Assembly: GCA_028284945.1 (NCBI GenBank)
Contig: JANQQJ010000002.1
Span: forward strand, 1 to 58,283
Reading direction: 5' to 3'
Origin: Alphaproteobacteria bacterium
GTDB lineage: Bacteria; Pseudomonadota; Alphaproteobacteria; SMXS01
DNA: 58,283 nt
Part shown: positions 503 to 9,462 of the stretch, in pieces
How positions within the stretch are numbered: the first letter of the stretch is position 1
How the letters are laid out: the number at the start of each line of letters is the position of its first letter
Program-made: the position numbers and the translations under genes
Notes under the pieces: model-generated
The model's database searches: none
The model's input: only the letters and a program-made list of their open reading frames with translations
Told to the model about the DNA's origin: nothing

Positions 503-1153
503 TTAGGGCATATTCCCATTATCTCTCGGGAATTCGCGCAATAACGCCAAGAGCGTCTGGGCATCGGGCAGACCGTTAACAGGTAAGCCGCGGGTTTCCT
601 GATAGGACGCCAACGCCTGACGGAGACTGTCAGTATAGGTGCCGTCTTGCGGCCCATTATACAGGGCTTCAGCAGCCAGGGTTTCCTGTGCCCATAGCAG
701 GGTTTCAAAATAGACCTCAACGGCGCCACCATCAGGTGTCGGCACAGACACGATATCGCTATTTGAACGGATTCTATAGGGCTCAAAAAACAGCATCAGC
801 CTTGCCAGCGCAGTCTCAAGCCTGAGCGATTGGTCGCCCCGGCAGATATTGCGCGTCAGGATCGCGACGGTGCTTGAGTCAATAAGGGGCGAAGCGTCTT
901 TTGTATCGGGCTGCATGCGGTTCAGACTACTGAGATAGCCTTCGATCCACCCGATATAGGGCTGAACAGCTTCAGCGCTGGTCCGTTCTGCTTCCAGATA
1001 GTCAGCACAGGATTTGATGCCAAGGCCACGGACGACGTAGTTGCCCAGGCGATCCGCTGCGATCGCGCTCGTAGCGGTGAAAACCAGCACGGCAACGGCG
1101 ATTAAAGCGCCGGCCCACCGCATCGCGGGGCCGTTTTCGGACAGAACCATCAT
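503..1153 (-). CDS. Exported protein with C-terminal peptidoglycan-binding domain
   Basis: After the chosen ATG the protein has a signal peptide (hydrophobic stretch AGALIAVAVLVFTATSA, then AIAADRL). Next comes a helical region with two spaced cysteines (SCADYL and NICRGD), a pattern seen in small periplasmic HdeA/Rap1a-like proteins. The last roughly 45 residues fit the PG_binding_1 fold: a G-x-Y-T-D-S-L-R-Q-A-L-A-S-Y-Q core, then GLPVNG and D-AQTLLALL. The open frame extends 24 codons further upstream, but that stretch covers the terminator region of the preceding gene and is not signal-like. Its position between two giant repeat genes on the same strand suggests a wall-anchoring or assembly role in the same system. 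Specific function is unknown. The start could also be the in-frame ATG at 1123. Confidence 0.75.
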   Translation of the reverse strand: MMVLSENGPAMRWAGALIAVAVLVFTATSAIAADRLGNYVVRGLGIKSCADYLEAERTSAEAVQPYIGWIEGYLSSLNRMQPDTKDASPLIDSSTVAILTRNICRGDQSLRLETALARLMLFFEPYRIRSNSDIVSVPTPDGGAVEVYFETLLWAQETLAAEALYNGPQDGTYTDSLRQALASYQETRGLPVNGLPDAQTLLALLREFPRDNGNMP

Positions 1154-1185
1154 ACCTGCAAGTCTATCCAATGAAGAGATGCTCG

Positions 1186-1220
1186 TAAAACAAACAGGGC
1201 CGGAACGCACGTTCCGGCCC
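1186..1220 (-). terminator. Rho-independent terminator after the giant repeat gene
   Basis: A perfect 10-bp stem, GGGCCGGAAC / GTTCCGGCCC (1197-1206 and 1211-1220), encloses a 4-base loop. On the minus strand it is followed by a T-rich tail (TGTTTGTTTT). It lies 26 bases past the stop codon of the 1246-6360 gene, so transcription of the giant gene probably ends here and the next gene downstream would need its own promoter. A short T-run on the plus side may make it work in both directions. Confidence 0.85.
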
Positions 1221-1245
1221 CGCATTGGTTTTTCTTAGCTTCGGT

Positions 1246-4200
1246 TTACTGACCGATCGAATTGAACGACCGGTTACCGATGGCGCTGGCACCGACGCTG
1301 TTGCCGCTAACCGAAACGCTGCTTGCAGACGCTGCACCCACGCCACTGGCGCCGATGGAAACATCGGACACGGATGCCGAAATGGTCTGGTTGGTGTTGG
1401 ACTGCAGGTTGCCGATCGCAACGCTGGGCCGTCCCGCAGGGGCGCCAGCATTAACCACGATGACGTTAAGCGCATCGTTGCCGATTGCTGTTGCCTGGAC
1501 GTTGTTGTCGTTAACCGAAATCGACCCCTCATCCAAGGCACCGGCCACACCGACACCAATCCCGATACCGGCGATGCTGGCCGTTGTAAAGCCGTCGATG
1601 GTGGCCTGGACGTTCAGGACTGCGTAATCCGCATCGGTCGTTGCGTTAACACCGCCAATACCTGGCGTTAGAGCAAGCGACAGGCCATCGGATTCCTGCA
1701 TGGTGGCTTCAGCACGGGTGATGATCACATTGGTCGTCTGATTGGTCTGCGCCGTTGCGAGCACGTTATTCCGGCTCGCAGACGCCGCCGTATTGTCCAA
1801 TCCACCATCCAATCCGACACCGATGCCATCAATCCCGATTGCGCCGGAAATTGTGGCAACGACCGAAGCATCAAGGGTCAGCTGTTCGTTACCGACCTGC
1901 GCCGTCACGTTACTTTCAGAGCCGGCCTCAATCGTTACACGGTTGTCTGAAATAAAGCCATTTGCAACAGCTTCAATCAGGTTGTCATCGATGCTGATCG
2001 CATCGTTGACGCCACCGGAGCCGATAACCGCACCAATCTGGACGCCTTCACCGACACTCGCCGTTGAGTCCGCACCCAGATTACGCTGGTGATTGAACAC
2101 GGCATGATCGGCTATAAACACATCGGCTGTCCCGGCCGACCCGATTGTTGCGCTTGGGACAATCGTGCTGTCACCATTGATCGACGCACCGGATTCAACG
2201 GTGATCGAGTTGATCGCCGTGCCAACCGTGGCGGATGCCCCGATGATATTGGCATCGACAGAGATACCGACGCCGCCTGGATCAGAGATATCACCGACGG
2301 TCCCGATGCTGCCAATCTGGACACCGAATACCGTGGACGCGACAGAACTGTTTCCATCACGAAGCTGGCGGGAGAACACCGCTGAGCTTGGCGAGTCGTC
2401 ACCAATGCCGACATTAGCAAGCGCCGTAATCGTCAGCTGGTTGGACGCACTGTCAATAACCGCACTGGCGATCATGTCATTTCGGTCTGCGCTGATGACG
2501 CCGGTCAGGACCGTGTCCGCCAGCACTTCGATCGTCGAGTTATTGACAGTCGCCGTCAGAATATCACCCTGTCCGGTTCCGTCATCCGTCATGCCCTGGC
2601 TGTTCACAATCCCGAAGTCGGCGGTCACCGTATCCGGGTTGGGTAGGCCAGCCACGATGGACGGTGTCCCCGTACCGGAGGCGTAGATATTGGTGCCCCC
2701 GACATTCAGCGTCTGGTCCGTACGATTGGCTGACGCCAGCGCCAACATGGCGTTGTCGTCGGCAGTGAGCGCCGAGTCAGAAATCAGAGTGTCCGGGCCA
2801 GCGATGTCATTCGACTGCGCCGCCGTGACCACAATATCCGTATTCGTGATCGATGCGCCGATATTGGGCACATCATCCGTGGACAGCTGAACGTTCCCGA
2901 CGAAGAAGTTGGCTTCGTTGGTGCCGAAATCAGCACCGCCGACATTGACCGAGTCACTGCCACGTGCCTGCGTCACAATGGCATTGCCGTTGGTTGTCAG
3001 CGCTGACTGGTCAACACTGTCAATGTTCGCCGCAACCGTGATGTCGCCATCATCGATAGATGCCAGAACATCAAAAGCGTTTTCCTGCCGCGACCCGATA
3101 CCGAACGACACATTGTCGAACTGCAGATCATTACCGCCAGCGGTGAACAGGAACGCTTCCGCATCCGGTTCTGATGGATCGGTAATGAAGGTCGTGCCAT
3201 CGGCCTCCAGAGTATTCTGGACTGCGTTGACCCGCGCGAAGGCACTCAATGTGTTGTCATTGGCCGACACGTCACTGGCCACGACGCCGGAAATTTCCCC
3301 GATGCCACCAGTGCCGTCGATATCTGCCAGAATTTCCGAGTTGACGATTTCAGACGTGAAACCGACATCGAGAGGATCATCACCGCGCTGGTTCGAGGCA
3401 ATAACCGCAACAGGGCCGCGGCGAGCACCCGGACCATCGTCAGCCGCACTCAGATCAAATGATCCCACATCCAGATTGATGGTGTTCGTCGCGGCATTAC
3501 CTTCAACGAAGGAGGTGATGGAGTTCCGATCCACTTCAACCGGGCTGCGGACCAGGTCACCAGTGCCGTCATTGGTACCAACATTAGAGAAGATATCTGC
3601 ATCATCTATGCTGACAACAACACCTTCGCCGCCGAGAGAATCAAAATACTGATCGTTAACCAGCGACGTCTCGGAATCAGTTCGAGAGATATCGCTGCTC
3701 AGCTGCAGGCTGGGCTCGTCGCCAGACGCCGTTGAAACCAGTGACTGGCTCGTCGCCGAAATGTTAACCGTGTTGTCAGCCCGGTTAAGACGCGCAGAAC
3801 CGGAGATCAGGTTGTCATTCAGCTCGATGCTGGTGTCCGTGATGTCCGTAGCGTCCTGTCCTTCGACATCCAAGTCAAAGCCACCCAGAATCTGCACCAG
3901 CACTTCAACGCTTTGCGTGCCGTTTTCAGCCGCAACTGTTTGCGTGTTGGTCAGCGCAGATGACGCATCGAGGCCCGCAAGCGCCGCGACCGTCAGCTCG
4001 GACGTTGCGTCATTCAGCGTCGCCGCAGCGATACCTTCATTGAAGTTCATGCTGACGCTGCTGCTGGCAATTTCAGCCGAACCGAACTCGATCCGTGCAT
4101 TGATCAAATCCGTAGCCGGATCACCGGTCGAGACCCGCACCGTTACCGGGCCGTTGTCGAGATCTTCAACGGACTGGTCGTTGCTGACCATGAAACCAGC

Positions 4201-6360
4201 CTGGGTATAGCTGACCGGCAGACCGCCAGAGCGATCCACGATCGTGTTGGGCAGAGCCTCCCCGCCATCGTCAACATTCGTGCCCATCACGGAGAGCGAA
4301 TTTGCTTCCGTGGCAAGGTTACCGAACAGCACGGCTTCCATGCGGTTCCGATCAACGCTGAGCGAGGCCTCAATGAACGTGTCTGGATTAGAGTCAACAT
4401 CGATAAGGTCGTTGTCGGCACCAGGGTCCAAAGTCGCGCTTAGGATTGAGCCATCTTCAATGGTCTGCGCGTTCGCCACGCCAGCGGTTGCGCTTACCGT
4501 GGTTGCATCGACACTTAGGCGATTCTGCGTCGTCAGGTTACCGGTTGCTGCGGCCCCCAGGAAATTGTCGGAAATGCTTGCGCTGGCATCCTCGAAATCA
4601 CCGGTTGCCGTCGCCCCAAACGGGTCACCATGGACAACATCAACAGCGATACTAACATCGGAATCAGCGATCACATCGCCGCCATCGACGACCTGATTGT
4701 TCAGCAGGGATAGGTCCGCCGTGATGCTTCCGGTCACCGTTGTCCGGTCCGTTGTGATATTTGATGGCGACGTCGCCGTATCGATCACAACATTGGTGGC
4801 CGAAATAGCCAGAAGGTTATCGGCTTCGTTGCCCGTCGCTTCGGACGACAGGTCGTTTCCATCGACCGTCAAGCTGGCCTCGATGTAGTCCTGCCCTTCA
4901 CCGGCAACATCAACAACGATGCTGGCATTGTTTCCAGCCACCGTATCACCAGTGGTGTACTGGTTGTTATTAACGCCAACCGTTGTATCAAACGTCGGCG
5001 AGCCTTCGATATCGATCGTATTGGTCACGTCATTCGAGGTGGCAACAGCACTGGTCGTATTGTTGTCGACAACAACACTTGATCCATCCAGCCCCTCGGT
5101 GTCGACACGCAGGATCGAGCTATCAACATCCGCCGTGACATTGACGTCATTGATCTGCGTGCTGGAGATAATCATGTCGGACTGAACATTGGTCGAGCTC
5201 GGACCGCCAAGCGAAACCTCGTTGGCCTGCTCTGTCGTCGGTCCTTCCTGCGACACTGTCGGCGCGAACACGATAGAGTTATCCGCCGTATTACCGGTTG
5301 CGTCCGCCGAAATCTCGTTGTTCGTGAACGTCAGGTTACTGTCGATAATGTCGCCCGGCGTGCTCGCATCACTGTCGCCAATAGTCGCGACAATGGTGGA
5401 ATTAGTAACCAGTGCATCATAGTCATCACCGCCGGTATTGATCTGCAGGTTGGCAACCGCAACAGAGCCTTCCAGCTCAACATTGCCGCCCGCCTCAACA
5501 TTAACGATGTTCGTGGCGTCATTGCCCGTCAGTGACGCGTTAATCAGGTTGCTATCGACAACCATCGGTGTGCCAACAACGTCAATGCCGCCATCGCTGT
5601 TCACGTCAAGACCGATGCGGCCAGTGTCAACGATCGCCGATGTCGTGACATCAGAGTTCAACTGAACGCTACCGGCCACGTATGACGCAGCAGCCTCGAA
5701 CTCCCCGACGCCGCTTTCACCGGCGGTCGGGTCGGTATTGAACTGGACCTGACCTTCTTCGTCACTGGTATAGCCCAAAGGCACAGAGCCCACAACGAGC
5801 GCACCGCCGGCGATGTCCTCGCCAACCGAGGTCGTTCCAACATTACCGTTCGTATCTGCGGTGATGCTGTTGCTCGTCAGGTTAATGCTGTCATCTGCGC
5901 CCGCGTCGATCACATCAATCCGGATCTCAGCCCCATCAGTGAGCGAGCTCAGCGTGTTCGCAACATTTGACTGCAGATTGCCAGCGATCGCGCCATTAGC
6001 CGGTGTCACGCCCGTCGCGAGCGCGTTATCGACCTCTGTAACAGCCTCGTTACCCGTGGCATCTGAAAACGCGGTATTGGTATCAACCGTCACAATGTTG
6101 GCTGAACCACCAATGTCTTCGGGCGGGCCAACAATCGCGGGGAAGCCAATCAGCGTATTAAGATTGACCGTCGTGACCGAGCCGGAGGAATTGGCCTGAT
6201 TGTTGACGTCCACCGCCGCAGCCGATCCACCTGTCGGCGAAATCGTCAGCGACCCGAGATCAACGATCAAATTCGGGGAGGTCGACGCATGCGCCGACAT
6301 TGCCACGCCTGCGGTGAGTGCGATCGCACTGACCGTCGACAAAATCCGGATATTACCCAT
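1246..6360 (-). CDS. Giant exported Asn/Gly/Ala-rich repeat protein (putative CsgG-exported fibre or adhesin subunit)
   Basis: About 1,704 residues. It begins with a Sec signal peptide (MGNIRILSTVSAIALTAGV...AMSAHA). The rest is a degenerate repeat with a period of roughly 80-95 residues and about 18 copies by eye. Each unit combines an N-x-Q element (VANLQ, IVNSQ, VLNVQ, IGNLQ) with a block close to DNxxxASAxGNxAxNxIxV. The last copy, GNSVGASAIGNRSFNSIGQ, is the C-terminus. I see no Cys, Trp or Lys in the mature part, many Asp/Asn/Ser/Thr, and no RTX nonapeptides, LPXTG or autotransporter barrel. Alternating small/polar strands with regular N and Q suggest a beta-solenoid or amyloid-like fold. 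The ATG at 6360 was chosen because AGGAAAGGG precedes it and the left-edge paralogue starts at the same point; an in-frame ATG at 6429 would add 23 residues. Downstream of a CsgG-type channel, it is probably the exported structural subunit. The function is inferred. Confidence 0.85.
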   Translation of the reverse strand: MGNIRILSTVSAIALTAGVAMSAHASTSPNLIVDLGSLTISPTGGSAAAVDVNNQANSSGSVTTVNLNTLIGFPAIVGPPEDIGGSANIVTVDTNTAFSDATGNEAVTEVDNALATGVTPANGAIAGNLQSNVANTLSSLTDGAEIRIDVIDAGADDSINLTSNSITADTNGNVGTTSVGEDIAGGALVVGSVPLGYTSDEEGQVQFNTDPTAGESGVGEFEAAASYVAGSVQLNSDVTTSAIVDTGRIGLDVNSDGGIDVVGTPMVVDSNLINASLTGNDATNIVNVEAGGNVELEGSVAVANLQINTGGDDYDALVTNSTIVATIGDSDASTPGDIIDSNLTFTNNEISADATGNTADNSIVFAPTVSQEGPTTEQANEVSLGGPSSTNVQSDMIISSTQINDVNVTADVDSSILRVDTEGLDGSSVVVDNNTTSAVATSNDVTNTIDIEGSPTFDTTVGVNNNQYTTGDTVAGNNASIVVDVAGEGQDYIEASLTVDGNDLSSEATGNEADNLLAISATNVVIDTATSPSNITTDRTTVTGSITADLSLLNNQVVDGGDVIADSDVSIAVDVVHGDPFGATATGDFEDASASISDNFLGAAATGNLTTQNRLSVDATTVSATAGVANAQTIEDGSILSATLDPGADNDLIDVDSNPDTFIEASLSVDRNRMEAVLFGNLATEANSLSVMGTNVDDGGEALPNTIVDRSGGLPVSYTQAGFMVSNDQSVEDLDNGPVTVRVSTGDPATDLINARIEFGSAEIASSSVSMNFNEGIAAATLNDATSELTVAALAGLDASSALTNTQTVAAENGTQSVEVLVQILGGFDLDVEGQDATDITDTSIELNDNLISGSARLNRADNTVNISATSQSLVSTASGDEPSLQLSSDISRTDSETSLVNDQYFDSLGGEGVVVSIDDADIFSNVGTNDGTGDLVRSPVEVDRNSITSFVEGNAATNTINLDVGSFDLSAADDGPGARRGPVAVIASNQRGDDPLDVGFTSEIVNSEILADIDGTGGIGEISGVVASDVSANDNTLSAFARVNAVQNTLEADGTTFITDPSEPDAEAFLFTAGGNDLQFDNVSFGIGSRQENAFDVLASIDDGDITVAANIDSVDQSALTTNGNAIVTQARGSDSVNVGGADFGTNEANFFVGNVQLSTDDVPNIGASITNTDIVVTAAQSNDIAGPDTLISDSALTADDNAMLALASANRTDQTLNVGGTNIYASGTGTPSIVAGLPNPDTVTADFGIVNSQGMTDDGTGQGDILTATVNNSTIEVLADTVLTGVISADRNDMIASAVIDSASNQLTITALANVGIGDDSPSSAVFSRQLRDGNSSVASTVFGVQIGSIGTVGDISDPGGVGISVDANIIGASATVGTAINSITVESGASINGDSTIVPSATIGSAGTADVFIADHAVFNHQRNLGADSTASVGEGVQIGAVIGSGGVNDAISIDDNLIEAVANGFISDNRVTIEAGSESNVTAQVGNEQLTLDASVVATISGAIGIDGIGVGLDGGLDNTAASASRNNVLATAQTNQTTNVIITRAEATMQESDGLSLALTPGIGGVNATTDADYAVLNVQATIDGFTTASIAGIGIGVGVAGALDEGSISVNDNNVQATAIGNDALNVIVVNAGAPAGRPSVAIGNLQSNTNQTISASVSDVSIGASGVGAASASSVSVSGNSVGASAIGNRSFNSIGQ

Positions 6361-6464
6361 CCTAAACCCTTTCCTGGCAGCAGTTTTGCTGGTGGACATT
6401 TCAAGCTCTTCGCGACGTTGATCAATCATAATAATGACCCTTTCAGGCCCCCCTCACTTAAACC

Positions 6465-7346
6465 TTACCACACCGAAGCCGTCAGCGGCACAAACTGGAA
6501 CGTCTGTCCTGGCTTGAACGCGCGCGTATTCGGCGTGATGACGAACCCCAGCTTGGGGTCCTGAATTAGAAACAGACGAGTCGGCCCGCAACAGGGCGGG
6601 AACGGCGACTCTTCCCTGAACCGCCCGACCCGCGGGATGATGTCGACATTGTCGAGCACCGCAACAGGCAGTTCATAAGCATTGCGTTCAACCGGCGACG
6701 GATCACTGGGATCCGAAGCCGTTTGCAAGGCGTCGATCAGCTGGAACGGCGCCGGCGCTTTTGCCGGACGCGGGAAGATGATGATCTTTCCAGCAGCGCC
6801 AGCTGTCTCTTCAGCCAGGTCAGCAACATGGATGACCGAGACACCATCCGCCAATTCTGCGCCAAATGTGGCCCCCTTGGCCACGTGATAGGCATAGCCA
6901 CGGCTCGCACGGCGCATCGACCGCGCCCCATCAATCGGTGCAGCCGGCGTCACCATCGCCGACGTCTCGTCGGAACTCCCGGCATCCGCCTCTACCGGCG
7001 CATTCCGCAGCGGCGCATACTTGCTGACGACTTCTGGCTGTTGCTCAACAATTTCACCGCGCTCAACCGCTAACCGCCGCGCCGATGCCCGCACCAGCTT
7101 CTCCAACCGTGCATTCGGCGCTGGCTCTGCGCCAAAGGTCCCGACTACAGGGGTATCGACCTCAGGCTCTGAGGTAACGGGTTTTTCGACGACGAAAACA
7201 CCATCGACCTCGCCGGACTGCAGCTCTACTTCAGGTACCGGTTCTGTCCCACGATTATCCTCGTTCAACGGCACTGCAAAGCCGGGTGCTGACAGGGCAA
7301 GCCCCGCCGCAAATCCCAAAGCCGACAATGCCGCATACCGTATCAT
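6465..7346 (-). CDS. Exported protein of unknown function, fibre locus
   Basis: 293 residues with a clear signal peptide (MIRYAALSALGFAAGLALS...GFA). The mature half is acidic and low in complexity, with many Val/Glu/Pro (EPVPEVELQSGEVDG). The C-terminal half looks folded: GYAYHVAKGATFGAELADG, a KIIIFPRP strand, and a final segment with adjacent cysteines (PPCCGPTR) ending in FKPGQTFQFVPL. I do not recognise a family. The gene starts 7 bases after the CsgG-OmpA stop codon, within AGGACGATG, so it is translationally close to the channel gene. It is followed by the giant repeat gene. CsgG systems usually encode small periplasmic partners of the channel (CsgE and CsgF in curli). This gene holds the equivalent position, but I see no sequence similarity to them and infer only an accessory role. 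Confidence 0.8.
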   Translation of the reverse strand: MIRYAALSALGFAAGLALSAPGFAVPLNEDNRGTEPVPEVELQSGEVDGVFVVEKPVTSEPEVDTPVVGTFGAEPAPNARLEKLVRASARRLAVERGEIVEQQPEVVSKYAPLRNAPVEADAGSSDETSAMVTPAAPIDGARSMRRASRGYAYHVAKGATFGAELADGVSVIHVADLAEETAGAAGKIIIFPRPAKAPAPFQLIDALQTASDPSDPSPVERNAYELPVAVLDNVDIIPRVGRFREESPFPPCCGPTRLFLIQDPKLGFVITPNTRAFKPGQTFQFVPLTASVW

Positions 7347-7353
7347 CGTCCTG

Positions 7354-8697
7354 TTACTGCCCCGGTCCTGTAGACGTTACATCGAGCGCGATTTCATCAT
7401 CGCGCAGAATTTGTATAACAACCCGGCGGTTAAGCGGTTCGGCAACGCCGTCCGCTGTTGGCACCGCAGGCTGGCTTTCGCCATACCACACGAGCGAAAT
7501 ACGCTCTTTCTTGATACCACGCTGAATCAGCGCCCCCTGAACGACTACTGCGCGGCGGCGCGAAAGTTCGAGATTATAAAGCTCCGCCCCTTCGCGATCG
7601 GTATGCCCTTCAAGCAGCAGATTGGCCGGCTCACCCTGCAGAGCGGCCTCCGCGGCATCATCGATCGTCCGAACCGCCTGTGCCGACAGCTCAGCCGCAT
7701 CCTCTTCGAAGTAGACCGTATAAGTGGTCGGCAGGTCTTCAGGCTCTTCCACAGCAACGGGCTCAGGCTCAGGTTCGGGCTCTGGCTCGTATACACGTGG
7801 CGCCTCATCCGGGCACGGATCCTCGCCGTCGAAATTAATCAATGGCTCATGATCCACATTGCTAACCGCACCCATGAGCTCCAGCACACCAAGCTCAAGC
7901 GCTGTACGTACACCAAGCTGCAGTGGCTCCTGGCTTTTCAGACCAGCATTAATGTCGACCAGAGTGTTCTTGAAGAACTCGAAAAGGTTAATGCCGACTT
8001 CGTAACCGGTAATCTGTTTCTGCAGGCTGGTCGTGCGCACAACCTCCAGGGAAGACGTGTCGACGATCCGGAGGTCAACCGCCACATTAACGGTGAAAAC
8101 GCGGCCCTTACCGCCAATACCGTCTACGGTGGCTTCGATTCCGCCGGAATGAACGTTGTAGTTGAGCTCGGTAATACCGCCGACCAGGAAATAATCCGTC
8201 TCGATCACAGTACCGCCATAATACGGCTTCCAGGGAACATTCTGCGCGCTGCCACCCTTATCGCGCACCTCATGCATACCGCCATCACCGAGATAGCGGC
8301 GGTCGAGATACCGCAATTCCAGCTCGGTCACCTGGGTATCGAAGCGTTCGTGCAAGCGAATCGCGTCGCCCAGCTTGCCAAGCGCCGACATCACCATCAG
8401 AGCACCGCCCTGGGTAATCGGATTGCCACCCTCGGCCTCGCTGAACTTACCGGTGTAGTCCTTAACGTTGCCGACTGTCACCCGCAGGCGCTCACGCCCG
8501 TTATTCTTGATCTTGCGGGCCATGCACTGGAACGACCCTTCCAGCGGCGTCGAATTATCTGTAACCGGAGGGCCCTGAACCGTAGGCGCCTCGGAGTCAT
8601 GACGTTTGTAATGCTCAACCTTAGCGGCACACCCCGCTAACGCCACAATCGAGCTAACAACCGTGATTCGTTTTAGCCATGTAGAACCGGCGATCAC
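7354..8697 (-). CDS. CsgG/HfaB-type outer-membrane secretion lipoprotein fused to an OmpA C-terminal domain
   Basis: 447 residues from a GTG preceded by a strong GGAGGGGG site. A lipoprotein signal ends in the lipobox ALAGC (Cys23), as in CsgG. The first ~300 residues match the CsgG family: VTVGNVKDYTGKF, ITQGGALMVMSALGKLG, DYFLVGGITELNYN, FTVNVAVDLRIVDTSSLEVV, then KQITGYEVG and QEPLQLGVRTALELG. A Pro-Glu linker of alternating EP follows. The end is an OmpA-like peptidoglycan-binding domain: YTVYFEEDAAELS, LEGHTDREGAELYNLELSRRRA, then EPLNRRVVI, with the diaminopimelate-contacting Asp and Arg in place. Known CsgG proteins form a nonameric pore that exports unfolded curlins; HfaB does this for holdfast-anchor proteins. 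The fusion would tie the pore to the cell wall. It lies between a short secreted protein and the exported repeat protein, probably as one operon. An in-frame GTG at 8730 is a weaker start. Confidence 0.9.
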   Translation of the reverse strand: MIAGSTWLKRITVVSSIVALAGCAAKVEHYKRHDSEAPTVQGPPVTDNSTPLEGSFQCMARKIKNNGRERLRVTVGNVKDYTGKFSEAEGGNPITQGGALMVMSALGKLGDAIRLHERFDTQVTELELRYLDRRYLGDGGMHEVRDKGGSAQNVPWKPYYGGTVIETDYFLVGGITELNYNVHSGGIEATVDGIGGKGRVFTVNVAVDLRIVDTSSLEVVRTTSLQKQITGYEVGINLFEFFKNTLVDINAGLKSQEPLQLGVRTALELGVLELMGAVSNVDHEPLINFDGEDPCPDEAPRVYEPEPEPEPEPVAVEEPEDLPTTYTVYFEEDAAELSAQAVRTIDDAAEAALQGEPANLLLEGHTDREGAELYNLELSRRRAVVVQGALIQRGIKKERISLVWYGESQPAVPTADGVAEPLNRRVVIQILRDDEIALDVTSTGPGQ

Positions 8698-8751
8698 GCT
8701 GTCCCCCTCCAATTTACTTCCTGCCCCCACTAACGACCCGTTGACCGGACC

Positions 8752-9462
8752 CTAGTTTAACGACCCAACGTCATTGCCTTCTCTGGCTCCGAAGAATCCA
8801 CAGGCCTCACTACTGTCAACGCTCGCCGTCTGCGGGCTCATGTCGTTCGTCATGGTCGAGTTCAGGGCGACATCACTGACGCCACCCGATGCATTCACAT
8901 TATCCACATTGCTGGAGATCGACGAATTGTCGACACCGGCTGTCTGCGGGCTATCCGTATTTCCCTGACGTGTCCGCGATGACTGTCCGCCATTGGATGT
9001 CGCTGTACCATCGGGGTCATTGATGCTGCCCGTCGCGGTGTCGCTCACCACATTAAACGGATCCGTGCCGATGGTACTATTGAAGCCGCTGGTGTCGGTG
9101 CTGCTGATGTTACCCGTCGCATCGGCGGAAATTGACCCCGGCGTATCGATGATCGGCGAGGACGCAGCGCCTTCGGCAGCCAGCTGGCCTGTGTTACCAA
9201 TCGCCGATGCGGTCAGATTACAGTTGATCTGATCCCCGGCGATATTGGTCACGAAATTATTCGTCGTATCGAAACCATCAAAGAAACCGCCTTCTTTGCG
9301 CTCACGCAGGTCAAGCAAGGACGCCTTGGCGATCTTGTCATTGGCTGTATCAAACTGCCAGGGGCGGCTTTCAAACAGGCCGTTACTAAATGCAACTGAC
9401 GTGCCCATCAGAGCACATACCGCTGAGCACGCGGTGAGCTTTAGAAACTTTGACGACGTCAC
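8752..9462 (-). CDS. Short secreted protein sharing the repeat signature of the giant protein (HfaA/curlin-like candidate)
   Basis: 236 residues from a GTG with an AAGGAGGGGG ribosome site. It has a signal peptide (FLKLTACSAVCALMGTSVAFS). The mature chain is almost lysine-free past residue 60 and rich in Ser, Asn, Asp and Thr. It carries LTASAIGN and ISADATGN, the same SA-x-A-x-GN signature that recurs through the giant repeat protein. It also has a duplicated SPQTA(G/S)VD(N/S)S element near the C-terminus. Two Cys lie far apart (INCNLT and EACGFFG). It is the first gene of the locus, 54 bases ahead of the CsgG-OmpA gene. By analogy with hfaA-hfaB gene order in Caulobacter it may be a minor subunit or nucleator of the same fibre. 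That analogy rests on context and motif, not on alignment. Confidence 0.75.
   Translation of the reverse strand: MTSSKFLKLTACSAVCALMGTSVAFSNGLFESRPWQFDTANDKIAKASLLDLRERKEGGFFDGFDTTNNFVTNIAGDQINCNLTASAIGNTGQLAAEGAASSPIIDTPGSISADATGNISSTDTSGFNSTIGTDPFNVVSDTATGSINDPDGTATSNGGQSSRTRQGNTDSPQTAGVDNSSISSNVDNVNASGGVSDVALNSTMTNDMSPQTASVDSSEACGFFGAREGNDVGSLN

Follow-up and report, generated by a model that had tools for sequence, protein, structure and literature searches.

A CsgG/HfaB-family lipoprotein with a C-terminal OmpA domain and its relatives with canonical, altered or absent tails in the Pseudomonadota

The gene at positions 7354–8697 on the minus strand of the window (the whole stretch of 58,283 nucleotides analysed here) encodes a 447-aa lipoprotein of the CsgG/HfaB family with a C-terminal OmpA domain, as seen from the reading frame, profile matches and predicted fold. 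The start codon is GTG at 8697, with an alternative GTG at 8730. The lipoprotein signal peptide (8629..8697, minus strand) has the lipobox LAGC with Cys23. The Pfam CsgG match (PF03783) covers residues 163–282 (7850..8211, minus strand) and scores 53.8 bits against a cut-off of 20.8. It starts at profile position 86 of 210; the N-terminal half of the channel domain is diverged by Pfam. The NCBIfam HfaB profile covers residues 18–278, and the fold match to CsgG (Foldseek and Z-scores) spans nearly the entire channel; the whole channel domain occupies approximately residues 24–290. A Pro/Glu-rich linker of about 45 residues with the run EPEPEPEPEP (about residues 283–326; 7720..7850, minus strand) leads to the OmpA domain (about residues 327–426; 7420..7719, minus strand), seen by Pfam, alignment and fold. 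The Pfam OmpA match (PF00691) scores 61.1 bits against a cut-off of 27.2 and spans residues 329–424, that is, all profile positions from 1 to 98 of 98. Both domain matches lie in one reading frame.

The OmpA domain carries the motif EGHTDREG...YNLELSRRRA. Asp367 (GAT, 7597–7599) and Arg382 (CGC, 7552–7554), both read on the minus strand, occupy the mDAP-contact positions, and the context of this pair, EGHTDREGAELYNLELSRRRA, lines up with the Pal/P6 structures. The earlier note, made from the sequence alone, had described a lipoprotein CsgG domain, a Pro-Glu linker and a full OmpA domain with its ligand-contact Asp and Arg at the coordinates given above, and this description holds in all these points, with the gene on the minus strand. 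The domain search that it proposed places the N-terminal part inside the CsgG superfamily, both by the Pfam score and by the fold. The architecture is kept in five other genomes of the window's family at 72–75% identity, hence the fusion is neither a chance reading frame nor an assembly join. An antisense reading frame of 539 aa (7021–8640, plus strand) overlaps the channel gene, but it is not a gene, as what similarity it shows in relatives only reflects that of the coding frame.

The channel gene belongs to a run of minus-strand genes separated by short gaps and encoding, in this order, the 236-aa protein, the channel, and proteins of 293, 1727 and 240 aa. Directly upstream of the channel gene, in the HfaA position, is the gene of a secreted Asn/Gln/Ser-rich protein of 236 aa (8752..9462), recognised by its reading frame, NxxQ motifs and the family loci. 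It shares with HfaA the gene position and a short Asn/Gln (NxxQ) motif, and the profile match between the two is weak (57%). No Pfam or NCBIfam family matched this protein. Its homologues in at least 57 loci have a strongly conserved N-terminal block, PWQF.TA.DK......D....KKGG(Y/F)YD.F, which could be an export signal. Next after the channel gene is that of a 293-aa secreted protein (6465..7346), whose C-terminal part is kept in the syntenic loci of the family. The HfaD position is occupied by a Cys-free surface protein of 1727 aa with Asn/Gln repeats (1246..6429). It contains 17 NxQ motifs, compared to 4.2 in shuffled sequences, and has orthologues of 1731–1732 aa in two genomes of the family and a relative of 2159 aa in Halomonas. 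The last gene of the run encodes a 240-aa secreted protein with a Pfam PG_binding_1 domain (503..1225), so that wall-binding domains of two kinds occur in the run, OmpA in the 447-aa protein and PG_binding_1 in the 240-aa one.

Other genomes of the window's family have relatives of the genes for the 236-, 447-, 293- and 1727-aa proteins in matching positions. Farther relatives mostly show the order of a small secreted protein, the channel, and a protein of 1000–2500 aa. The 240-aa protein has no homologue in the fetched syntenic loci of the relatives, and for this reason the membership of the PG_binding_1 gene in the system is doubtful. The arrangement resembles the Caulobacter holdfast anchor operon, hfaABD, in which HfaB is the core of the anchor, required for HfaA and HfaD to arrive at the surface (PMC6707917).

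An AlphaFold2 model of the monomer, built from 40 aligned relatives (mean pLDDT 69.9), features a confident channel core, a disordered linker and a confident tail with the beta-alpha-beta-alpha-beta-beta arrangement. The channel part matches CsgG with a Foldseek E-value of 2.5e-10 and Z up to 14.1 (rmsd 8.4 over 189 residues); for the structure 6l7a, Z is 13.3 with rmsd 4.9 over 182 residues. Long hairpin strands are seen in the model where CsgG has its barrel hairpins. The tail matches OmpA domains, among them that of Pal (4g4w) with Z 7.8 and rmsd 3.5 over 102 residues, but the C-terminal domain of IF3 matches it as well as Pal does. The predicted match to Pal is therefore near the level reached by common alpha/beta arrangements and alone is no proof of an OmpA domain, so that the assignment rests mainly on the sequence profiles. 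In a model of a variant-type protein the tail is not among the structural matches listed; since the channel fills this list, this is no evidence against the fold.

With the HfaB equivalog profile (NF037935), the 447-aa protein scores 223.8 bits, below the cut-off of 300, and the other members of its clade score 189–240, whereas the HfaB controls from related genomes score 401.6 (L081) and 393.4 bits (L082). In the midpoint-rooted tree of the channel domain (95 rows), the clade of the window protein comprises 64 rows with support 99/99 and stands apart from the HfaB clade. The protein is not an HfaB equivalog; it is a member of a sister clade present in alpha-, beta- and gammaproteobacteria. 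By analogy, it would work like HfaB, from a family sister to it. Both are CsgG-type lipoprotein channels, 37–44% identical in the channel domain, and in both cases the gene is situated between that of a small secreted protein rich in Asn and Gln and that of a larger surface protein with repeats. However, members of the HfaB clade end in a short Pro/Ala/Tyr-rich tail and have no OmpA domain, and the protein in the HfaD position is much larger at the window locus (1727 aa). CsgG of E. coli shares the channel-domain fold, the lipoprotein nature and, presumably, the secretion of repeat proteins, but the identity is about 25%, the OmpA domain is absent, and no curli csg genes adjoin the channel gene of the window. 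The OmpA domain, in turn, is a full-length homologue of the Pal/OmpA C-terminal domains (PF00691) with the mDAP-contact Asp and Arg; here it is linked to a secretion channel, whereas those are standalone or follow a beta-barrel porin.

The distribution of the fusion was assessed at several levels. In samples of 385 genomes of the class and 398 genomes of the phylum, the phylum matches listed all being from the window's own class, full-length canonical fusions among the matches listed are seen only in the window's family. There, six of ten genomes have the canonical fusion, and one more has a fragment where a contig ends. A channel-profile search of 84,980 species genomes was then used to fetch 80 loci. 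An OmpA-like tail is present in 69 of these, absent from eight, and three are cut by a contig end, yielding 69 of 77 assessable loci (on named contigs). Hence the architecture is more widespread than the earlier note had supposed, and many Pseudomonadota have a CsgG/HfaB-like channel with an OmpA-like tail. That note had also contrasted the fusion with HfaB as lacking the domain; this is true for the canonical HfaBs sampled, which form the sister clade, but the protein is no oddity, as the OmpA-like tail is the rule in its own clade. A class-wide search around the Halomonas genome, covering 369 genomes with a threshold of E below 1e-30, added no other fusion. No prior description of a CsgG–OmpA fusion was found in the literature searched (open-licence papers only).

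The tails outside the canonical set were recognised by profiles. The profile constructed from the seven canonical tails converged in two rounds and recovered the other tails with zero false positives, most of them at E-values from 1e-10 to 1e-4, the best shuffled sequence scoring 0.48. An independent profile of 25 non-canonical tails finds Pal structures (E 1.6e-5), and hhalign gives it 97% against the canonical set. The Pfam OmpA profile matches 20 of these 25 at E up to 1, mostly below the cut-off. In practice, the names HfaB or CsgG hide the extra domain, and most variants score below the Pfam OmpA threshold. The OmpA-like domain is absent from several close relatives (L034, L089, Nevskiaceae, Aureimonas). 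The tails of the Nevskiaceae, Aureimonas and L034 were considered as diverged OmpA domains and rejected, the hhalign probability being under 1% with no profile match. In four Nevskiaceae loci (L111, L112, L114, L144) the tail ends, instead, in a conserved APLLPQTGRPD...GQ.GPRGIGP.ASRRPR.

The ligand site divides the tails into two groups. In the seven canonical members, from the window's family and Halomonas alkaliantarctica, G-H-[TA]-D, the Asn and the Arg are invariant, including the Asp and Arg of the mDAP pair in all seven; within the clade, only these keep the canonical wall-binding signature. In the 66 non-canonical tails the Gly is mostly Ala, the His is replaced by Arg in 60, and the Asp position is Thr, Ser or Asn in 61. 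In 63 tails the position before the Asp site is Asp or Glu, in 63 the Asn is replaced by Arg, and 65 retain the ligand Arg. Most of them share an altered site, R-[DE]-x-E...R...R, with the Asp moved, Arg in place of Asn and the ligand Arg retained. As the typical variant shows no length change between these positions, the site seems to have been rebuilt, and the effect is probably not that of a shifted alignment. The variant tails of the Comamonadaceae and sphingomonads are attached to homologous channels of the same clade and share the architecture, gene order and OmpA-like profile, differing in the site itself, where GHTD has become A-R-D-T and the Asn an Arg, while the ligand Arg is retained.

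Both kinds of tails are under purifying selection and are not decaying. In the window-type group, the median dN/dS is 0.14 for the tail and 0.10 for the channel, and about 0.29 for the linker, which is relaxed; the ranges in three separate groups are 0.12–0.14 for the tails, 0.05–0.11 for the channels and 0.29–0.35 for the linkers. In PapS of Rhodospirillum, mutation of the Arg equivalent to Arg382 abolishes mDAP binding in vitro and raises protein mobility (PMC11369160). Judging from the altered residues, the ligand of the tail has probably changed in most relatives, or the wall is contacted in a different manner; some variants may still bind a wall peptide, given the ligand Arg kept in nearly all of them. 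Since most members of the clade have a changed ligand site, wall tethering cannot be assumed to be the general function of the fusion.

As for the origin of the tails, the channel distances correlate with the tail distances (r = 0.86), and the tree requires at least six state changes among the three tail classes by parsimony. This allows either one ancestral gain followed by several losses, or separate gains of the canonical and variant tails. Sequence similarity is indecisive, because some standalone OmpA domains resemble the variants as well as the fused canonical tails do, and two of them (L022 and L029) are even more similar to the variant tails. A single origin of all OmpA-like tails was considered and is not demonstrated, since the variants resemble some standalone OmpA domains no less than they resemble the canonical tails of the fusions.

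CsgG is a lipoprotein with a periplasmic C-terminus, and its published structures have C9 symmetry. By analogy with it, the 447-aa protein would form an oligomeric beta-barrel pore with a periplasmic vestibule, exporting the adjoining Asn/Gln-rich surface proteins, that is, the 236-aa protein and the adhesin-like 1727-aa protein. With a periplasmic C-terminus, each subunit would hang its OmpA domain on the flexible Pro/Glu linker. In the window's lineage, where the mDAP-binding pair is intact, this domain would grip the peptidoglycan and keep the pore, together with a surface fibre or anchor, in place under load or shear. We regard as fairly probable the reading in which the protein is an outer-membrane channel for the neighbouring repeat proteins, held against shear by OmpA arms gripping the peptidoglycan in this lineage. 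The nine arms per pore suggested by the earlier note would be a reasonable extrapolation from CsgG, and the fixation of the export site, also suggested there, would follow from CsgG and characterised OmpA domains taken together. Tethering seems not to be essential to the channel, as the canonical Asp and Asn have been lost from the majority of its clade and several close relatives have no such domain. The Caulobacter anchor complex spans the outer membrane, and the mechanism of polysaccharide-adhesin anchoring is largely uncharacterised according to its authors (PMC6707917); in one lineage, a channel that brings its own wall-binding domain would directly answer the problem of envelope retention under load.

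An alternative is that the OmpA-like domain serves mainly for docking in the periplasm, its partner being a substrate, an accessory protein or a wall ligand in modified form, and that the peptidoglycan contact in the window's lineage is incidental or ancestral. Nearly all of the 66 non-canonical tails, indeed, lack the GHTD/N signature and share R-[DE]-x-E with Arg for Asn, they are under purifying selection like the channel, and by profile comparison they belong to the OmpA fold (hhalign 97%; E about 2e-5 for the Pal profile). However, the invariance of the canonical pair in the six family genomes and Halomonas makes a wall ligand the simplest explanation there, and the retained Arg leaves room for wall-peptide binding in some variants. 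We consider a mainly docking function unlikely. Less probable still, indeed very unlikely, is that the 447-aa protein, with its CsgG fold, forms a ring or scaffold in the periplasm and no trans-membrane pore, similar to TolB-N, PelC or FlgT, and that the OmpA domain makes it an envelope scaffold. TolB, PelC and FlgT do match the channel model at Z about 10, and FlgT works beside MotY, an OmpA-domain protein, in the Vibrio flagellar ring. Yet CsgG matches clearly better than these (Z 13–14), including the long hairpin strands, which are absent from PelC and TolB, the NCBIfam HfaB profile spans the whole channel domain, and the neighbouring genes encode secreted repeat proteins.

Besides the wall-anchored export channel preferred for the window's lineage, the clade as a whole may be described by an OmpA-like periplasmic module that acts as a wall anchor in one branch and in most others has a remodelled pocket (R-[DE]-x-E...R...R) that takes another ligand. 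We put the chances of this description slightly short of even. If it is true, the module would be a way to place or regulate pores exporting amyloids or adhesins. As the clade contains channels with canonical tails, with altered tails and with none, it provides a natural comparative contrast.

The source genome has two Poly_export proteins and two further CsgG-domain proteins. One of the latter (L170, G000:C6:9406-10014) is a secreted protein of 345 aa scoring 99.7 bits, adjoining very large proteins; the other (L172, G000:C18:8208-8711) has 324 aa and an apparent SH3-like tail at the C-terminus. Several Variovorax, Novosphingobium and Sphingosinicella genomes have two copies of the channel operon (L122/L123, L135/L148, L132/L153, L136/L160, L126/L162), some of them tens of kilobases apart on one contig. 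In Variovorax paradoxus (L031, CP063168.1), a variant channel operon resides on a 293-kb plasmid and is flanked by two genes with EAL domains (c-di-GMP phosphodiesterase type) and a Crp/Fnr regulator.
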